A DNA stretch of 12,345 nucleotides from Chloroflexota bacterium (GTDB lineage: Bacteria; Chloroflexota; Dehalococcoidia; Tepidiformales; Tepidiformaceae): positions 1 through 12,345 of the forward strand of contig JANXYE010000044.1 in assembly GCA_025350285.1 (NCBI GenBank), written 5' to 3'. The notes below the pieces were generated by a model, which saw only the letters and a list, made by a program, of their open reading frames with translations, ran no database searches and was not told where the DNA came from. Each line of letters starts with the position of its first letter. Position 1 is the first letter of the stretch. Shown in pieces: positions 2,124 to 9,463 of this stretch. Made by a program: the position numbers and the translations under genes.

Positions 2124-3491
2124 TCAGGGCTGGCCGAGCCGTGGCAGGACGACTCGCACGGTTGTACCCCGCGCGACCTCCGGCAGGTCCACAGCCCCAC
2201 CGTGCAACTGGACGATCGACTCGACGATCGCGAGCCCGAGGCCGCTTCCCGGGCGCCCGCCAGCATAGGCGCCACGTTGGAAGCGGCGGAACACTGCCCC
2301 TCGCACGGCCGCCCGGATGCCGGGGCCGTCATCGGCGAACGTGAGGATGACGTGCCGGCCGCGCTCCTCAAGGCGCACATCGACCTCAACGTCGTCGCCG
2401 CCGTGAACGAACGCGTTCTCCAGAATGTTCGCAATCACCCTTACGAGGAGTTCAGCGTCGCCCGACACGCATGCCCCCGCCTCCGCCGCGTCGTAGCGGA
2501 GCCGCGCGCGGGGATGGTCGGCGGCAAATCCCTCGGCGACCGCAGAAACGAGGTCCGCGAGGTCCACTGCCGCGAATTCGATTGCCTGTGCACCCGAATC
2601 CATACGCGACAGGAGGAGCAACTGGCGCACCAGCCTTGAGAGGCTCTTTGACTGGGCGAGCGCGTCTTCAAGCGTCGTGCGATACACCTCGTCCTGCCGA
2701 GGCCGCGAAAGGGTCACATCGAGCGCCGTTTCCAGGGCGGCCAGCGGCGTGCGCAGTTCGTGCGAGGCATCGGCGATGAAACGCCGTTCTCGCTCAATCC
2801 CAGCGGCCAGCCGATCGAGCATCGCGTTGAAGGTGACGGCCAATTCACCCACCTCATCGCTGGCGGTGGCTCCTTCAATGCGACGGTCGAGTTGCCCCGA
2901 ACTGATGGTGCGGGCGGTCCGCGTAATCTCGCGGATCGGGCGGAGGGCGCGGCGGGCGATTTCGAACGATGCGCCCGCGAGCCCCACCACGGTGACCGCC
3001 ACGGCAATGCCCAGCGTCGTGCGCAGTTGTGCCAGCGGTTCCGTGACCGGCTCCCGGAGGATACCCACGACGACGGTCGCACCGCCGGACGTGCGGCCCG
3101 CGGCCACGCGCAGCTCTTCCCGCCCGTACCTTACGGAACTCAGCGCGTCTCCTTCCGCGGCGGCCCGCGCGACAAGCGCGCGCTCATCAACCGTGGCTGC
3201 GACTCCCGGGCTCAGATCCTGGAGCACTTCGCCGCCCGCTCCGTATACTCGCAAGACCGGCGCGTCTTCGTTCGGCTGCTGAACCGCGGGCAACCGCCCC
3301 GCCCCGTCGAGAAGCCCGCGGCGTGTCTCAAGCTGCGCCCGCACCGTGTCGTCAAGGTTGTCTCTGAGGTCGGCCTCAAAGCGCAGGTAGACCGCCGTGG
3401 ACATGAGAATGAGCGCACCGGCGGAGACGGCCAGGATTGCCAACGCAATGCGCAGCCGGATCGGGAAGCTACGGAGCCGCGAGCGATGCAT
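2124..3491 (-). CDS. Two-component sensor histidine kinase (HAMP, HisKA, HATPase_c)
   Basis: A 455-residue membrane sensor kinase. A first transmembrane helix (about 13-35) and a second (about 158-178) enclose an extracytoplasmic sensor region of about 120 residues with no domain I recognise. A HAMP linker follows (about 179-232), then the dimerisation and phosphoacceptor motif DASHELRTPL with H244, the N box around N359 (NILENAFVHG), the G1 box DDGPGI (387-392) and the G2 box GSGLGL (415-420). All catalytic elements are present, so it should autophosphorylate H244 and pass phosphate to the adjacent regulator. The start ATG at 3491 lies 23 bp inside the regulator gene, implying translational coupling. 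The overall layout resembles the EnvZ/QseC/CusS-type class, but the signal sensed cannot be deduced. Confidence 0.96.
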   Translation of the reverse strand: MHRSRLRSFPIRLRIALAILAVSAGALILMSTAVYLRFEADLRDNLDDTVRAQLETRRGLLDGAGRLPAVQQPNEDAPVLRVYGAGGEVLQDLSPGVAATVDERALVARAAAEGDALSSVRYGREELRVAAGRTSGGATVVVGILREPVTEPLAQLRTTLGIAVAVTVVGLAGASFEIARRALRPIREITRTARTISSGQLDRRIEGATASDEVGELAVTFNAMLDRLAAGIERERRFIADASHELRTPLAALETALDVTLSRPRQDEVYRTTLEDALAQSKSLSRLVRQLLLLSRMDSGAQAIEFAAVDLADLVSAVAEGFAADHPRARLRYDAAEAGACVSGDAELLVRVIANILENAFVHGGDDVEVDVRLEERGRHVILTFADDGPGIRAAVRGAVFRRFQRGAYAGGRPGSGLGLAIVESIVQLHGGAVDLPEVARGTTVRVVLPRLGQP

Positions 3492-4152
3492 CGATCCGAT
3501 ACCCTACTCCGCGCACGGTCTGAATCACGCTGGAATCGAACGGAAAATCGACCTTCTTCCGTAGCCCGTGGATGAGCACCTCGATGAAGTTCGTTTCGCC
3601 GTCCAGTTCGAGGTCCCAGACGTGGTCGGCGATCATCGTCTTGCTTTGGACAGTCCCGGCGTTCCGCATGAGGTACTCCAGCAGGGCAAACTCTTTCGCG
3701 GTCAGGCGAATATCGATGCCAGCGCGCGTCGCCTGGTGGGCCGCCGGGTCCAACGTGAGGTCTGCCACGCGGAGCACCGGCGGGGCCCCGCCACCACGGC
3801 GCAGGAGAGCACGCACGCGGGCCAGCAGTTCGGCCAGTGCGAACGGCTTCACGAGGTAGTCCTCAGCGCCAGCGTCCAGACCGATGACCCGATCCTCCAC
3901 CGCGTCGCGGGCTGTGAGGAAGAGGACTGGCGCTCCGGGCAGGCCGCTGCCGCGCAAGCGCCTGCACACTTCCAGGCCGTCTATCCCCGGCATGGTGATG
4001 TCGAGGATGAGCGCGTCATACGGCACCACGCGAGCAAGGGCGAGGGCGTCTTCGCCGTTGTCCGCCACGTCGATGGCGTATCCGGCCTCCCGTAAGCCGA
4101 GCGCTACGTATGTGCGGATCGTGGGTTCGTCTTCGGCAAAGAGAATGCGCAT
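3469..4152 (-). CDS. OmpR/PhoB-type response regulator
   Basis: A 227-residue DNA-binding response regulator. The receiver domain (about 1-115) shows the acidic pocket E7-D8, phosphoacceptor D51 in LILDITMPG, switch T80 and K102-P103. The C-terminal winged helix has LTAKEFALLEYLM and the end motif VRGVGYRI typical of the OmpR family. Phosphorylation by the kinase downstream should promote dimer binding to promoter repeats. I start it at ATG 4152 (MRILFAEDEP), where the receiver fold begins; an in-frame TTG at 4212 would add 20 residues unlike the family. The gene is divergent from the CIRCE-controlled operon, with 139 bp between start codons. No convincing sigma-70 promoter of its own was found, so whether the CIRCE site also affects it is open. 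Confidence 0.96.
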   Translation of the reverse strand: MRILFAEDEPTIRTYVALGLREAGYAIDVADNGEDALALARVVPYDALILDITMPGIDGLEVCRRLRGSGLPGAPVLFLTARDAVEDRVIGLDAGAEDYLVKPFALAELLARVRALLRRGGGAPPVLRVADLTLDPAAHQATRAGIDIRLTAKEFALLEYLMRNAGTVQSKTMIADHVWDLELDGETNFIEVLIHGLRKKVDFPFDSSVIQTVRGVGYRIDASLAAP

Positions 4153-4227: not shown

Positions 4228-4254
4228 TTAGCACTCTTGACAGGCGAGTGCTAA
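4228..4254. promoter_or_regulatory. CIRCE operator (HrcA binding site)
   Basis: TTAGCACTC (4228-4236), nine bases, then GAGTGCTAA (4246-4254): an exact match to the CIRCE consensus with its canonical 9-bp spacer. CIRCE is bound by HrcA, the heat-shock repressor, which is itself kept active by GroEL; usual targets are groESL and dnaK operons. Here neither is downstream. The site overlaps the -35 element and spacer of the promoter facing the FmdB-type gene, the expected layout for repression. Confidence 0.95.
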
Positions 4255-4266
4255 GTTCGGGATCAT
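4237..4266 (+). promoter_or_regulatory. Predicted housekeeping-sigma promoter embedded in CIRCE
   Basis: A consensus -35 TTGACA (4237-4242) occupies the first six bases of the CIRCE spacer. After 18 bp there is GATCAT (4261-4266), a 4/6 match to the -10 consensus, so transcription would begin near 4273. A ribosome site GAGGAA (4282-4287) and ATG 4292 follow. HrcA on the operator would block polymerase at this promoter. The -35 is strong; the -10 is inferred from spacing. Confidence 0.7.
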
Positions 4267-4291
4267 AGCTCGACAAGCTGCGAGGAACCGG

Positions 4292-4705
4292 ATGCCCACC
4301 TACGACTACAGTTGCCCAAGGTGCAAGGCGATGTACGAACTGCGCGAAGGCTTCGACGCGCCCACGACGCAAACCTGCCAGGAGTGCGGCAAGGCGACCG
4401 CAAAGCGTGTCCTCACGGCCCCTCGTATCGTCTTCAAAGGCAGTGGCTGGTACGCGACCGACAGCCGCAGCAAGACAACGGCGATAGCGGATACCCCGTC
4501 CGAAGGCGGGTCGGACTCGAAGGCCGAAGGAAACGCCGAGACGAAATCCGGCGGGAAGCCGGAGACAAAGTCTGAATCGAAGCCCGCGAAGTCCGAGTCG
4601 AAGGGCGAATCGAAGTCCAGCGAGCCCAAGAGTTCGTCGGGCGAGTCAAAGTCCAGCGGGTCCAAGGGTTCGTCGGGCGACTCCCTCGCCTCCGCGGCTT
4701 CCTGA
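4292..4705 (+). CDS. FmdB-family zinc ribbon protein with Lys/Ser-rich tail
   Basis: A 137-residue protein whose first 45 or so residues are an FmdB-type (CxxC_CxxC_SSSS) zinc ribbon: MPTYDYSCPRC with C8 and C11, then CQEC with C29 and C32, followed by the usual RVLTAPRIVFKGSGWYATD segment. From about residue 65 to the end it is a low-complexity Ser/Lys/Glu/Gly tail, partly built of tandem repeats. FmdB proteins were named as putative regulators of formamidase and amidase genes, but most have no proven role. The ribosome site is GAGGAA four bases before ATG. It is the first gene after the CIRCE operator and promoter, so it is probably heat-inducible. dtd follows after 11 bp. Family call is firm; function is unknown. 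Confidence 0.92.
   Translation: MPTYDYSCPRCKAMYELREGFDAPTTQTCQECGKATAKRVLTAPRIVFKGSGWYATDSRSKTTAIADTPSEGGSDSKAEGNAETKSGGKPETKSESKPAKSESKGESKSSEPKSSSGESKSSGSKGSSGDSLASAAS
4615..4686 (+). repeat. Two tandem 36-bp coding repeats in the FmdB tail
   Basis: The stretch from 4615 is repeated with a 36-bp period from 4651, encoding SSEPKSSSGESK and then SSGSKGSSGDSL, with a few substitutions. The upstream tail holds shorter KSE/KPE/SK units of the same composition, suggesting growth by slippage or unequal exchange. Copy number could vary between strains. Confidence 0.7.
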
Positions 4706-4716
4706 GGCCGCGCCCC

Positions 4717-5190
4717 ATGAAGGCCGTTGTCCAGCGTGTGGCCTACTCGCAGGTGATTGTCGAAGGCGAGATCGTGGCCACGATAGACGACGGATTGCTC
4801 GTGTTGCTCGGAGTCGGTCCCGCGGATGACGCCACGATTGCCCGCCGCCTGGCGGCCAAAGTCGTCGGTCTGCGCGTGTTTTGCGTGAATTCCAAAAACA
4901 TGAACAGTTCGGTCATCGACATTGGCGGAGCAGTCCTCTGCGTGAGCCAGTTCACCCTCTTCGCGGACGTGCGGCGCGGCAACCGCCCGTCGTTCTCCGG
5001 CGCCGCCAATCCGGTGCTCGCGAGCGAACTCTACGAAGCGTTCTGCGCCGAGATTGCCGCACGCGGAGTCCCGTGCGAACGCGGAGTCTTCGGGGCGGAC
5101 ATGGAGGTCGAGTTACTGAACAATGGGCCGGTCACCCTCCTCCTCGATACCGCCGACTGGGAACGGCCACGGCGGGCGCCCGCGACTTGA
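4717..5190 (+). CDS. dtd: D-aminoacyl-tRNA deacylase
   Basis: A 157-residue protein matching DTD, which hydrolyses D-amino acids (and glycine mischarged on tRNA-Ala) from tRNA and recycles the tRNA; it acts as a cytoplasmic homodimer. Both signature motifs are present: SQFTLFAD at 77-84 and NNGPVTLLLD with the Gly-cisPro element at 137-138 (GPVT 137-140) that is inserted into the partner's active site. The MNSSVIDIGG segment (62-71) also fits. The start ATG 4717 is preceded by GAGG (4704-4707), which overlaps the stop of the FmdB-type gene; the 11-bp gap indicates co-transcription from the CIRCE promoter. The C-terminus is about ten residues longer than usual and basic. Confidence 0.96.
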   Translation: MKAVVQRVAYSQVIVEGEIVATIDDGLLVLLGVGPADDATIARRLAAKVVGLRVFCVNSKNMNSSVIDIGGAVLCVSQFTLFADVRRGNRPSFSGAANPVLASELYEAFCAEIAARGVPCERGVFGADMEVELLNNGPVTLLLDTADWERPRRAPAT

Positions 5191-5256
5191 CCCAGAGCGG
5201 GACGGGCGGCAAGCCTTGAACCCACATCCCCGGCCAACGCCACCAAGGACGCCTCC

Positions 5257-6957
5257 ATGCGCATGAGTAAGCTGCTGTTCAAAACGCTGCGAGAGCTGCC
5301 CGCCGACGCCGAACTCCCGAGCCACCAGCTCCTCCTTCGCGCGGGCCTCGTGACGCAGCTGGCCGCCGGGACGTACTGTTTCGCTCCGCTCGGTTGGCGC
5401 GTCTTTCGCCGGCTCGAAAACATCATTCGCGAAGAGATGGACCGCAGCGGCGCCCAGGAAGTCCACCTCCCGGCCCTCCACCCGATCGAGCTGTGGGAAC
5501 AGAGCGGCCGGGCCGAGAGCATGGGCCATACCCTCTTCCGCCTTTCGGACCGCAAGGAGCGCGGCTTCGCCCTCGGGCCTACGCACGAGGAGGTCGTCAG
5601 CTTCCTCGCCTCCAAAACCATCCAGAGCTACCGCGACCTTCCTGTCACGCTCTACCAGATCCAGACGAAGTTCCGGGACGAGGCGCGCCCCCGCGGCGGC
5701 CTCGTCCGCCTGCGCGAGTTCACCATGAAGGACGCCTACAGCTTCGACACCGGCTGGGACACGCTGGACGCCTCGTACGATGCCGCCTTCAAAGCGTATG
5801 TCCGGATCTTCGAACGGGCGGGCGTGCCCGTGATCCCTGTGGCGGCCGATAGCGGCGCGATCGGCGGCAAGGATAGTCAGGAGTTCATCTTTCTCACGCC
5901 GAACGGCGAGGACGAGATCCTCCTCTGCCCCGGCTGCGGGTACGCCGCGAACGCCGAGAAGGCCGAGTTCCGCCGCAAACCGTTCATCGCGGCGGAAGCG
6001 AAGCCGCTTGAAAAGATAGCGACCCCCGGCCAGAAGACGATCGCCGACCTGGTGGCGGCCCTCGGCATCGACGCGCGCCAGACGAATAAAGCGGTCTTCT
6101 ACCGGGCGGACGGCCAGCCCGTGTTCGTGGCCATCCGCGGCGACCTCGATGTCAACGAGATCAAGCTCAAGAACACACTCAAGGCGAGCGACCTGGAGCC
6201 AATGAACGATGCCATGGTGCAGGCCGCCGGCCTCGTCCCCGGGTCCGCCTCGGCCGTTGGGCTCAGCGGTATGACGATCGTCGCCGACGAGAGCGTCGTC
6301 GAAGCGCCGAACCTGGTCGCGGGCGCGAACGAGCCCGATGCCCACTACGTGAACACGAACTACGGACGCGATTGGACGGCGACCGTCGTGGCGGACATCG
6401 CCCTCGCCCGCGCCGGCGAAGCGTGCGCGACCTGCGGGACAGCGCTCGAATCCCGCCGGGGCATGGAGATGGGCCACGTCTTCAAGCTCGGGACCATCTA
6501 CTCCGAATCGATGGGCGTGCACTACCTCAACGAACAGGGCGAGCAGAAACCGGCCGTGATGGGCTGCTACGGCATCGGCGTCGAGCGAATGATGGCGGCC
6601 GTGATTGAAGCGAACCACGACGCGAACGGCATCATCTGGCCGGCCGAGGTAACGCCGTACGACATACACATCGTTGGCTTGAATCTGGACCAGGAACCGG
6701 TGGCCGCGGCCCTCGCCGAAGTCGAGGCGCTCCTGGAAGCCGCCGGACTCTCGGTGCTCGTCGACGACCGGACCGACTCCGCCGGGATAAAGTTCAAGGA
6801 TGCGGACCTGCTGGGCATCCCCCAGCGCCTGACGGTCAGCCCGCGGGCGCTGGGCCAGGGCGGCGTCGAACTCCGTGCGCGGGCGAGCGGCGAAAGCGCG
6901 ATTGTGCCCCTGGCGGATCTCGTCGACCGGCTGCAAGTGAACCGAGGTTCGCGTTGA
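5257..6957 (+). CDS. proS: Prolyl-tRNA synthetase (bacterial type with INS editing domain)
   Basis: A 566-residue class II synthetase that charges tRNA-Pro with proline. The N-terminus MRMSKLLFKTL aligns with the usual start of bacterial ProRS, so ATG 5257 is chosen; AAGGA lies eight bases upstream. Motif 2 is seen at TKFRDEARPRGG (R140-D-E) and motif 3 at GIGVERMMAA (E443-R444). Between them is the INS editing domain (about 223-385), which removes mischarged alanine, with its conserved lysine K278 in TNKAVFYRA and a GLVPGSASAVGL loop in place of the more common GPVGL form. The anticodon-binding domain fills the last 100 residues. It lies 66 bp after dtd with no hairpin between, and is likely in the same unit. 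Confidence 0.98.
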   Translation: MRMSKLLFKTLRELPADAELPSHQLLLRAGLVTQLAAGTYCFAPLGWRVFRRLENIIREEMDRSGAQEVHLPALHPIELWEQSGRAESMGHTLFRLSDRKERGFALGPTHEEVVSFLASKTIQSYRDLPVTLYQIQTKFRDEARPRGGLVRLREFTMKDAYSFDTGWDTLDASYDAAFKAYVRIFERAGVPVIPVAADSGAIGGKDSQEFIFLTPNGEDEILLCPGCGYAANAEKAEFRRKPFIAAEAKPLEKIATPGQKTIADLVAALGIDARQTNKAVFYRADGQPVFVAIRGDLDVNEIKLKNTLKASDLEPMNDAMVQAAGLVPGSASAVGLSGMTIVADESVVEAPNLVAGANEPDAHYVNTNYGRDWTATVVADIALARAGEACATCGTALESRRGMEMGHVFKLGTIYSESMGVHYLNEQGEQKPAVMGCYGIGVERMMAAVIEANHDANGIIWPAEVTPYDIHIVGLNLDQEPVAAALAEVEALLEAAGLSVLVDDRTDSAGIKFKDADLLGIPQRLTVSPRALGQGGVELRARASGESAIVPLADLVDRLQVNRGSR

Positions 6958-6984
6958 ACCGCCCCGGCCAGTAGCCTCCCTGCG

Positions 6985-7359
6985 ATGGGATTGCTCGGCG
7001 ACCTCCTCGGAGCCGCACCCGGCTCGCTCCTGCTCGTTTCGCCGCCGGACACCGCGCTCGCGGAGGCCGCCGGCTTGAAGCCACGGCCTTCCATCGTCTC
7101 GGGAATGCGGACGGCGGAGCCCGCGGCGTGTATCGTCTGGTGGCCAGAGGCCGAGGATCTGACGGAGGTGGCCCTCGCCCGTCTGCGCTGGCTCCTGGAG
7201 AACTCGCGCGGGCTGGCATGGGTGATCATCGATCCCGCGGAGGGACTTCCCGCCGCGGCGCAGGTGACCGAACAACTGGCCTCCGCCGGGCTCACACCGG
7301 CGGAACAGAAATCGCTCGGCGGATCGCAAACCGCCCTGCGCATTGGAGGAGACAAATGA
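6985..7359 (+). CDS. DUF3052-like small protein
   Basis: A 124-residue cytoplasmic protein. Its pattern, a short beta-alpha start (LLLVSPPD), an AACIVWWPEAEDL segment, an ARLRWLLENSRGLAWVIID strand-helix region and a final QTALRI strand, recalls DUF3052 proteins, whose central part reads like a degenerate Rossmann-type domain; no catalytic residue stands out. The DUF call is by memory of the pattern and moderate. There is no clear Shine-Dalgarno before ATG 6985, only 27 bp after proS, so it probably depends on read-through or coupling. Its TGA overlaps the ATG of the next gene (ATGA), a strong sign of translational coupling with the DinB-like protein. Confidence 0.8.
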   Translation: MGLLGDLLGAAPGSLLLVSPPDTALAEAAGLKPRPSIVSGMRTAEPAACIVWWPEAEDLTEVALARLRWLLENSRGLAWVIIDPAEGLPAAAQVTEQLASAGLTPAEQKSLGGSQTALRIGGDK

Positions 7360-7886
7360 ACCGCATCGAAATCGAAAGCGCCCTGAACAAGGACCGCGCC
7401 TGGCTCATCGAGACCTACGCGGAGATGTCCGAAGAGGAGTTGCTCAAGCCCGCCACCCCGAGCGAGCACGACAAGGCCACGATGTGGAACGCCAAGGATC
7501 ACCTGGTCCACCTGGCCCTCATCGAGTTCAACTTCGCGAAGATGATTCGGCGCCACCTGGAAGGGGATCCGAACCCGGTCGCCCTGCGGACCGACGCCTC
7601 CGGCCGGGAACGCCCGATGGAAGAGATCATGGCGGGCGTCCACGCCTGGACCGAGGACTGGATGCTGAAGCAGCAGGGCAAGTCGCTGAACGAATGCATC
7701 CAGGTTGGGCAGGAGGCCCGCGCGGAGAGCTTCAAGCTCCTCGGCGAGCTGAGCGACGCCCAACTGGCGGAAAAGCTCCCCGGAGCGCCATGGGCCGATG
7801 GCACAATCGGCGGCGTCATTTCGGCCAATGCCGGACACGGGCGCATGCACTACCAGTGGGTGAAGGATGGCTGGGCGGCGCGCTAG
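7356..7886 (+). CDS. DinB/DfsB-like four-helix bundle protein
   Basis: A 176-residue protein beginning MNRIEIESALNKDRAWLIETY. It fits the DinB-like (YfiT/DfsB) superfamily: a four-helix bundle binding a divalent metal with one His from helix two and an HxxxH pair from the last helix. Here the candidates are H49 or H52 (KDHLVHLALIE) and H161 with H165 (GHGRMHYQW). Many members use the metal for thiol-transfer chemistry with bacillithiol or mycothiol, and others are stress proteins of unknown function. GGAGGA precedes ATG 7356, which overlaps the stop of the DUF3052-like gene. A longer reading in this frame from 7128 has no support. It is the last gene before a strong hairpin at 7900. Confidence 0.88.
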   Translation: MNRIEIESALNKDRAWLIETYAEMSEEELLKPATPSEHDKATMWNAKDHLVHLALIEFNFAKMIRRHLEGDPNPVALRTDASGRERPMEEIMAGVHAWTEDWMLKQQGKSLNECIQVGQEARAESFKLLGELSDAQLAEKLPGAPWADGTIGGVISANAGHGRMHYQWVKDGWAAR

Positions 7887-7899
7887 CCTCATTCCCCGA

Positions 7900-7929
7900 C
7901 CCCTTCCCCAGGCGCCGCGGGAGAAGGGG
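7900..7929 (+). terminator. Strong GC hairpin ending the central operon
   Basis: CCCCTTC (7900-7906) pairs with GAAGGGG (7923-7929), extended inward by CCC/GGG (7907-7909 with 7919-7921) past one bulged A. It starts 13 bp after the DinB-like stop and marks the likely end of the operon begun at the CIRCE site. There is no T-tract. The sequence has the look of a repetitive extragenic palindrome and may recur elsewhere in the genome. The rest of the 7887-8047 gap shows only a 10-bp GC palindrome at 8020-8029 and no clear promoter. Confidence 0.6.
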
Positions 7930-9175: not shown

Positions 9176-9463
9176 ATGGCGCTCTACGAATATGTCTGCC
9201 GCACGTGCAAATCCAGCTTCACGAAACGCATGCCGATGACCGACGTCGTCCAGGAACTGCCGTGTACCACTTGCGGCAAGCCCGCGGGCAAGGCCATCGG
9301 CGGCTGGGCCTTCATCGGCAAAGCCGACGCCTCCCTTGGAGACGGCCCCGCGCCCTGGGACAGCGACGGTGACGGAGACGACGGCGGGGACGATTTTGGC
9401 GGCATGGGCGGCGATTTCGGTGGCCACGGCCATTCACACGGCCCGGGCGGCCATTCCCACTGA
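9176..9463 (+). CDS. FmdB-family zinc ribbon protein with Asp/Gly/His tail
   Basis: A 95-residue second FmdB-type protein. The zinc ribbon is MALYEYVCRTC (C8, C11) and PCTTC (C30, C33), followed by GKAIGGWAFIG as in the family. Its tail is different from the paralog at 4292: acidic Asp/Gly repeats (DSDGDGDDGGDD) and then a Gly/His run ending GHGHSHGPGGHSH, which looks suited to bind extra metal such as Ni, Zn or Cu. GAAGGAGG lies seven bases before ATG. It is 52 bp after the MaoC-like gene and may be in the same unit. The gene ends at a terminator-like hairpin facing a convergent lipoprotein gene. Function unknown. Confidence 0.92.
   Translation: MALYEYVCRTCKSSFTKRMPMTDVVQELPCTTCGKPAGKAIGGWAFIGKADASLGDGPAPWDSDGDGDDGGDDFGGMGGDFGGHGHSHGPGGHSH

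Follow-up and report, generated by a model that had tools for sequence, protein, structure and literature searches.

In a 12,345-nucleotide stretch of DNA from a Chloroflexota bacterium (the window; contig C75 of a draft genome of 3.24 Mb and 82% completeness), we found an exact CIRCE operator overlapping the promoter of fmdB, a zinc-ribbon protein gene that is followed by dtd and proS. The site, the promoter it would cover, the gene order, their conservation among relatives and an hrcA gene in the same genome can all be read directly from sequence. Since CIRCE is conserved at orthologous loci and hrcA is present, HrcA likely controls an fmdB-dtd(-proS) operon in this lineage. What looks new is the coupling of CIRCE-fmdB to dtd, a gene pair found across the class, and to proS, which joins it in the window's family only. 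Dtd is usually regarded as a housekeeping enzyme, whereas here its gene lies inside a putatively CIRCE-controlled operon, and we know of no other dtd in such a setting.

Operator, promoter and genes of the locus

Table 1 Features of the locus and further CIRCE sites of the same genome
Feature	Position	Strand	Remarks
CIRCE operator (putative HrcA site)	4228-4254	palindromic, oriented with fmdB (+)	exact; arms 4228-4236 and 4246-4254
-35 hexamer TTGACA	4237-4242	+	opens the 9-bp CIRCE spacer
-10 hexamer GATCAT	4261-4266	+	18 bp after the -35
fmdB	4292-4705	+	starts 37 bp after CIRCE; TIGR02605, PF09723
dtd, D-aminoacyl-tRNA deacylase	4717-5190	+	11 bp after fmdB; TIGR00256, PF02580
proS, proline-tRNA ligase with editing domain	5257-6957	+	66 bp after dtd; NF006625, TIGR00409, PF04073
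124-aa ORF, family-less in Pfam	6985-7359	+	27 bp after proS; operon membership uncertain
DinB-superfamily gene	7356-7886	+	overlaps the 124-aa ORF; DinB_2, PF12867; operon membership uncertain
Response regulator, divergent	3469-4152	-	PF00072, PF00486; ATG start read by eye
Histidine kinase, after the response regulator	2124-3491	-	
CIRCE genome site			before hrcA; grpE and dnaK adjoin (these two read by eye)
CIRCE genome site			before groEL (read by eye)
CIRCE genome site			before groES
CIRCE genome site, exact	contig C521 (L007), 2993-3019		between a dehydrogenase-like gene and the gene of a 91-aa Cys-containing protein

The operator reads TTAGCACTC-TTGACAGGC-GAGTGCTAA, an exact CIRCE (TTAGCACTC-N9-GAGTGCTAA). 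It is the single CIRCE match at up to three mismatches in the whole window, and none appeared in 200 shuffles of the sequence, which bears out an earlier reading made from the sequence alone (the sequence-only reading) that had reported an exact element with a TTGACA -35 in its spacer (Table 1). TTGACA-18-GATCAT is also the sole sigma-70-like site on either strand between 4100 and 8100, where 0.3 would be expected. HrcA bound at the operator would cover the -35 of fmdB. In the same interval, a simple scan found no plus-strand promoter-like site inside the operon besides the CIRCE promoter and no plus-strand terminator-like site; the hairpin proposed downstream of the DinB-like gene cannot be recognised as a terminator.

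The promoter elements recur in the window's family. With one genome taken per genus (15 genera), the CIRCE arms are 96% identical pairwise compared with 28-29% for the flanks, and the spacer begins with TTGAC in 14 of the 15. In an alignment of 25 sites, the hexamer with an 18-bp spacing carries A2 in 23, A5 in 22 and T6 in 24, and matches TATAAT at a mean of 3.3 of six positions, against 1.0 to 2.5 at other spacings. Seven genomes of g12 keep CIRCE with TTGAC absent from its spacer.

Both the coordinates and the family matches agree with the gene order proposed before (fmdB at 37 bp, dtd 11 bp on, then proS). Dtd matches the equivalog model TIGR00256 over its full length with 161.1 bits (cut-off 101.5). 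From this gene order, the short gaps and the lack of an internal site, we infer that fmdB, dtd and proS may share one transcript. Further downstream, the DinB-like assignment holds through its PF12867 match. The 124-aa ORF had been called DUF3052-like; a Pfam search up to E 0.05 matched nothing, and we dropped that name. A second FmdB-type gene of the window (9176-9463) scores above the TIGR02605 cut-off and has no CIRCE nearby.

Conservation among relatives

Our conservation test was anchored on dtd and covered 61 genomes (the window's own and 60 relatives), a CIRCE being counted at up to three mismatches of 18 within 250 bp before fmdB. We detected dtd in 56 of the 61 genomes, and 49 of these 56 loci, in many families, have an fmdB ahead of dtd in the same orientation (48 by script, with G027 added from separate inspection). 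CIRCE precedes fmdB at 35 of the 49. Among the checks that the sequence-only reading had named in advance were conservation of CIRCE at orthologous loci and an hrcA in the genome, and this count together with the single hrcA copy described below speaks for it on both.

The window's family (f1, 37 genomes) accounts for most of these sites: dtd is present in 35 genomes and fmdB upstream of it in 33, the other two dtd loci having no fmdB within 3.4 kb (G002) or being cut by a contig end (G004). CIRCE stands before fmdB at 32 of the 33 loci and is exact at 18. The one exception, G011 (L195), is a natural loss; it has fmdB-dtd-proS with no CIRCE (best 8 mismatches), and its groES has one. In the other families of the class, fmdB is upstream at 16 of 21 dtd loci (that of G045 is a piece cut by a contig end), with CIRCE at three (G041, G051 and G060, with 1, 0 and 3 mismatches, respectively) and without it at 13. 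ProS follows dtd at 34 of 35 family loci versus 0 of 21 others, some of which are covered by short stretches only. By these counts, fmdB and dtd are paired across the class, proS joins them as a trait of the family, and CIRCE, close to fixed within the family, occurs sporadically in other families.

As a yardstick, CIRCE precedes groES at all 17 family loci tested and at 10 of 13 in other families (30 of 53 groES matches tested); within the family, the fmdB site is conserved about as well. FmdB paralogues unlinked to dtd served as a control: among the best 30 loci listed, 0 of 26 had CIRCE at up to three mismatches (best 7). These 26 are the 27 unlinked starts minus one dtd piece (L016), and L024 gave no start. 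Five dtd-linked FmdB genes in the control set, all from other families, lack CIRCE too (5 to 8 mismatches). We detected hrcA in 54 of the 61 genomes. Of the 35 genomes with a CIRCE-fmdB-dtd site, 31 have it; the four site-bearing genomes without a detected hrcA are incomplete drafts (72-85% completeness).

The spacing between the two genes takes two forms in the family. At 13 loci, fmdB and dtd are direct neighbours, 3-17 bp apart; at the other 20, TetR-type sequence lies in between (for example, L217 2250-3497), and in G001 this insert is a single fusion gene that carries two TetR_N domains. At 18 of the 20 TetR loci, the frame before dtd ends no more than 13 bp from the dtd start or overlaps it; for the remaining two, the script took the first TetR frame only. 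The window's genome has no TetR gene between fmdB and dtd, and the best match to that TetR protein in its draft is a distant one (29% identity over 92 residues). The response regulator and histidine kinase found no match at the relatives' CIRCE loci and fall outside the conserved unit.

CIRCE-linked fmdB genes in other phyla and the FmdB protein

In a species collection, a composite pattern that places an FmdB start 15-45 bp after a CIRCE core matched at least 118 contigs, mostly of Actinomycetota. Among the 118 matches listed, record titles assign 101 to Actinomycetota, eight to Chloroflexi or Dehalococcoidia, three to Eremiobacterota, and one each to Armatimonadota, Ignavibacteriales, Acidobacteriota and Rubrivirga, and two name none. 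The assignment of the Acidobacteriota and Rubrivirga contigs may be wrong, since the FmdB starts of both are almost the same as actinobacterial ones. The assignment of L148, L139, L104 and L190 (Rubrivirga, Acidobacteriota and Bifidobacterium breve) looks doubtful, their FmdB starts resembling those of other actinobacterial groups.

Among the matches listed, dtd lies beside CIRCE-fmdB in seven of the eight Chloroflexi contigs; the eighth (L123) is apparently the G051 contig, whose end truncates dtd. L145 is apparently the G041 contig, and L191 has a ProS after dtd that is 67% identical to that of the window. None of the 110 non-Chloroflexi contigs listed, some of which end early, has dtd beside CIRCE-fmdB, from which it follows that fmdB does not need dtd. 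Actinomycetota loci such as L162 (Paraconexibacter), L160 (Glycomyces) and L106 (Ferrithrix) resemble the window in having CIRCE 12-42 bp before fmdB and in the FmdB motif and tail type, but differ in their neighbours, with no dtd found next to fmdB. By eye, five Actinomycetota contigs (L138, L140, L151, L159 and L172) show a phosphorylase-like start (GGSGFY or GGSGLY) after CIRCE-fmdB, which indicates that fmdB has other partners as well. A strict composite pattern, with no core mismatch and the operator at most about 42 bp from fmdB, found one of 400 genomes across the phylum, the window's own, with no sign in other classes; this pattern misses most family members. The gap between four of 61 genomes with a pattern of the composite type and 35 of 61 with the dtd-anchored test is one of method.

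FmdB proteins are often annotated as being of unknown function. In the window, the zinc ribbon occupies residues 1-50, with cysteines C8, C11, C29 and C32 in CxxC pairs, and is followed by a long tail rich in Ser, Lys, Glu and Gly. A structure model built with 41 sequences is ordered over the first 50 residues, while the 87 residues from 51 to 137 lack secondary structure, with block mean pLDDT values of 51-63. Common to the CIRCE-linked FmdB proteins is a motif of the FKGSGFY type, and most of their tails are rich in Ser. Compared with the PDB in Foldseek, the model had no match at E <= 0.001 (best E 0.15, the zinc-ribbon domain of RbpA), and a PDB sequence search matched the low-complexity tail only (best E 0.71).

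In mycobacteria, Ruc (Rv0991c) has been described as an FmdB-type chaperone that is HrcA-regulated and redox-controlled. Its known features, namely an FmdB zinc ribbon, a disordered Ser-rich tail and a CIRCE before the gene, recur in the window; the likeness is one of overall build, and the window's fmdB differs in having dtd next to it. Given that Ruc is an HrcA-regulated chaperone of this type, the window's fmdB is probably itself a chaperone-type gene. The sequence-only reading had presented the locus as one in which CIRCE controls these genes instead of a chaperone operon, a contrast that is doubtful in view of Ruc and of the wide distribution of CIRCE-fmdB. If the Ruc-like build is right, the contrast falls away and the coupling to dtd remains. 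The same applies to the new branch of the HrcA regulon that it had announced: CIRCE before fmdB is not in itself new, and its coupling to dtd and proS looks so.

Proposed control by HrcA and alternative explanations

The window's genome has one hrcA (PF01628, E 4.1e-41) and five CIRCE sites at up to three mismatches, the fmdB site and the four others in Table 1. In Bacillus subtilis, the repressor activity of HrcA depends on GroEL and is lost when unfolded protein occupies GroEL. The window's locus shares with the HrcA/CIRCE regulon of groES, groEL and hrcA-grpE-dnaK an identical operator placed on the promoter and an hrcA in the genome, and differs in its targets, fmdB, dtd and proS, which are not classical chaperone genes.

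We consider it probable, with good confidence, that an fmdB-dtd(-proS) operon is transcribed from the CIRCE promoter under the control of HrcA and GroEL. At normal temperature, HrcA on 4228-4254 would cover the -35 of fmdB and block RNA polymerase. Once unfolded protein occupies GroEL, HrcA would lose its GroEL-dependent activity and leave CIRCE, in parallel with its release from groES, groEL and hrcA-grpE-dnaK of the same genome. The single transcript then induced would carry fmdB and dtd, probably proS and perhaps the two later genes. A Ruc-like FmdB with its disordered tail would keep hold of proteins that are unfolded or oxidised, and D-aminoacyl-tRNA would be cleared by Dtd.

The arrangement suggests that protein-folding stress may also raise translation quality control in this family. 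We lean, by a modest margin over even, towards the broader reading that the HrcA circuit has been widened in this direction, unfolded protein raising a Ruc-like chaperone, Dtd and, in one family, ProS. Of the link between heat shock and translation fidelity put forward earlier, HrcA control stands as likely; the fidelity part is read from gene order, and proS belongs to it in the window's family only. If the link is true, cells under heat would rescue proteins and also synthesise them with fewer errors. With a conserved HrcA operator upstream of a dtd operon, stress control of tRNA proofreading would become open to direct test, and FmdB proteins would join the heat-shock genes over several phyla.

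The main rival, which we regard as unlikely, is that HrcA controls fmdB only, as an ordinary chaperone-type target, and that dtd and proS are passengers with a promoter of their own or no gain from induction. The 110 of the 118 listed contigs with CIRCE-fmdB and no dtd nearby would fit such a view, as would the 13 of 16 fmdB-dtd pairs without CIRCE in other families and the housekeeping nature of proS, whose expression is needed without heat. It leaves unaccounted for, however, that fmdB and dtd stay together at 49 of 56 dtd loci in many families, that the gaps before dtd are short or replaced by overlaps, and that the simple scan gave no plus-strand promoter-like site inside the operon; we continue to favour joint control of fmdB and dtd.

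That CIRCE instead controls the divergently oriented genes for the response regulator and histidine kinase is very improbable and was rejected: the element is a palindrome 75 bp away from the regulator's ATG, but both genes are unmatched at the relatives' CIRCE-bearing loci and the conserved -35 and -10 are directed at fmdB. Less probable still, and rejected as far as chance is concerned, is a chance palindrome or functionless relic. In favour of this view, not every CIRCE of this genome is old (the exact C521 site is absent at the relatives' 91-aa gene); against it, shuffling produced none, 32 of 33 family loci retain the fmdB site although the flanks have diverged, and 0 of 26 unlinked FmdB paralogues have one. 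At the relatives' 91-aa gene, the best match to CIRCE among 29 other loci has six mismatches, and the C521 site looks recent, unlike the fmdB site; the 91-aa protein itself is present in 23 of the 37 genomes searched, which all belong to the window's family.
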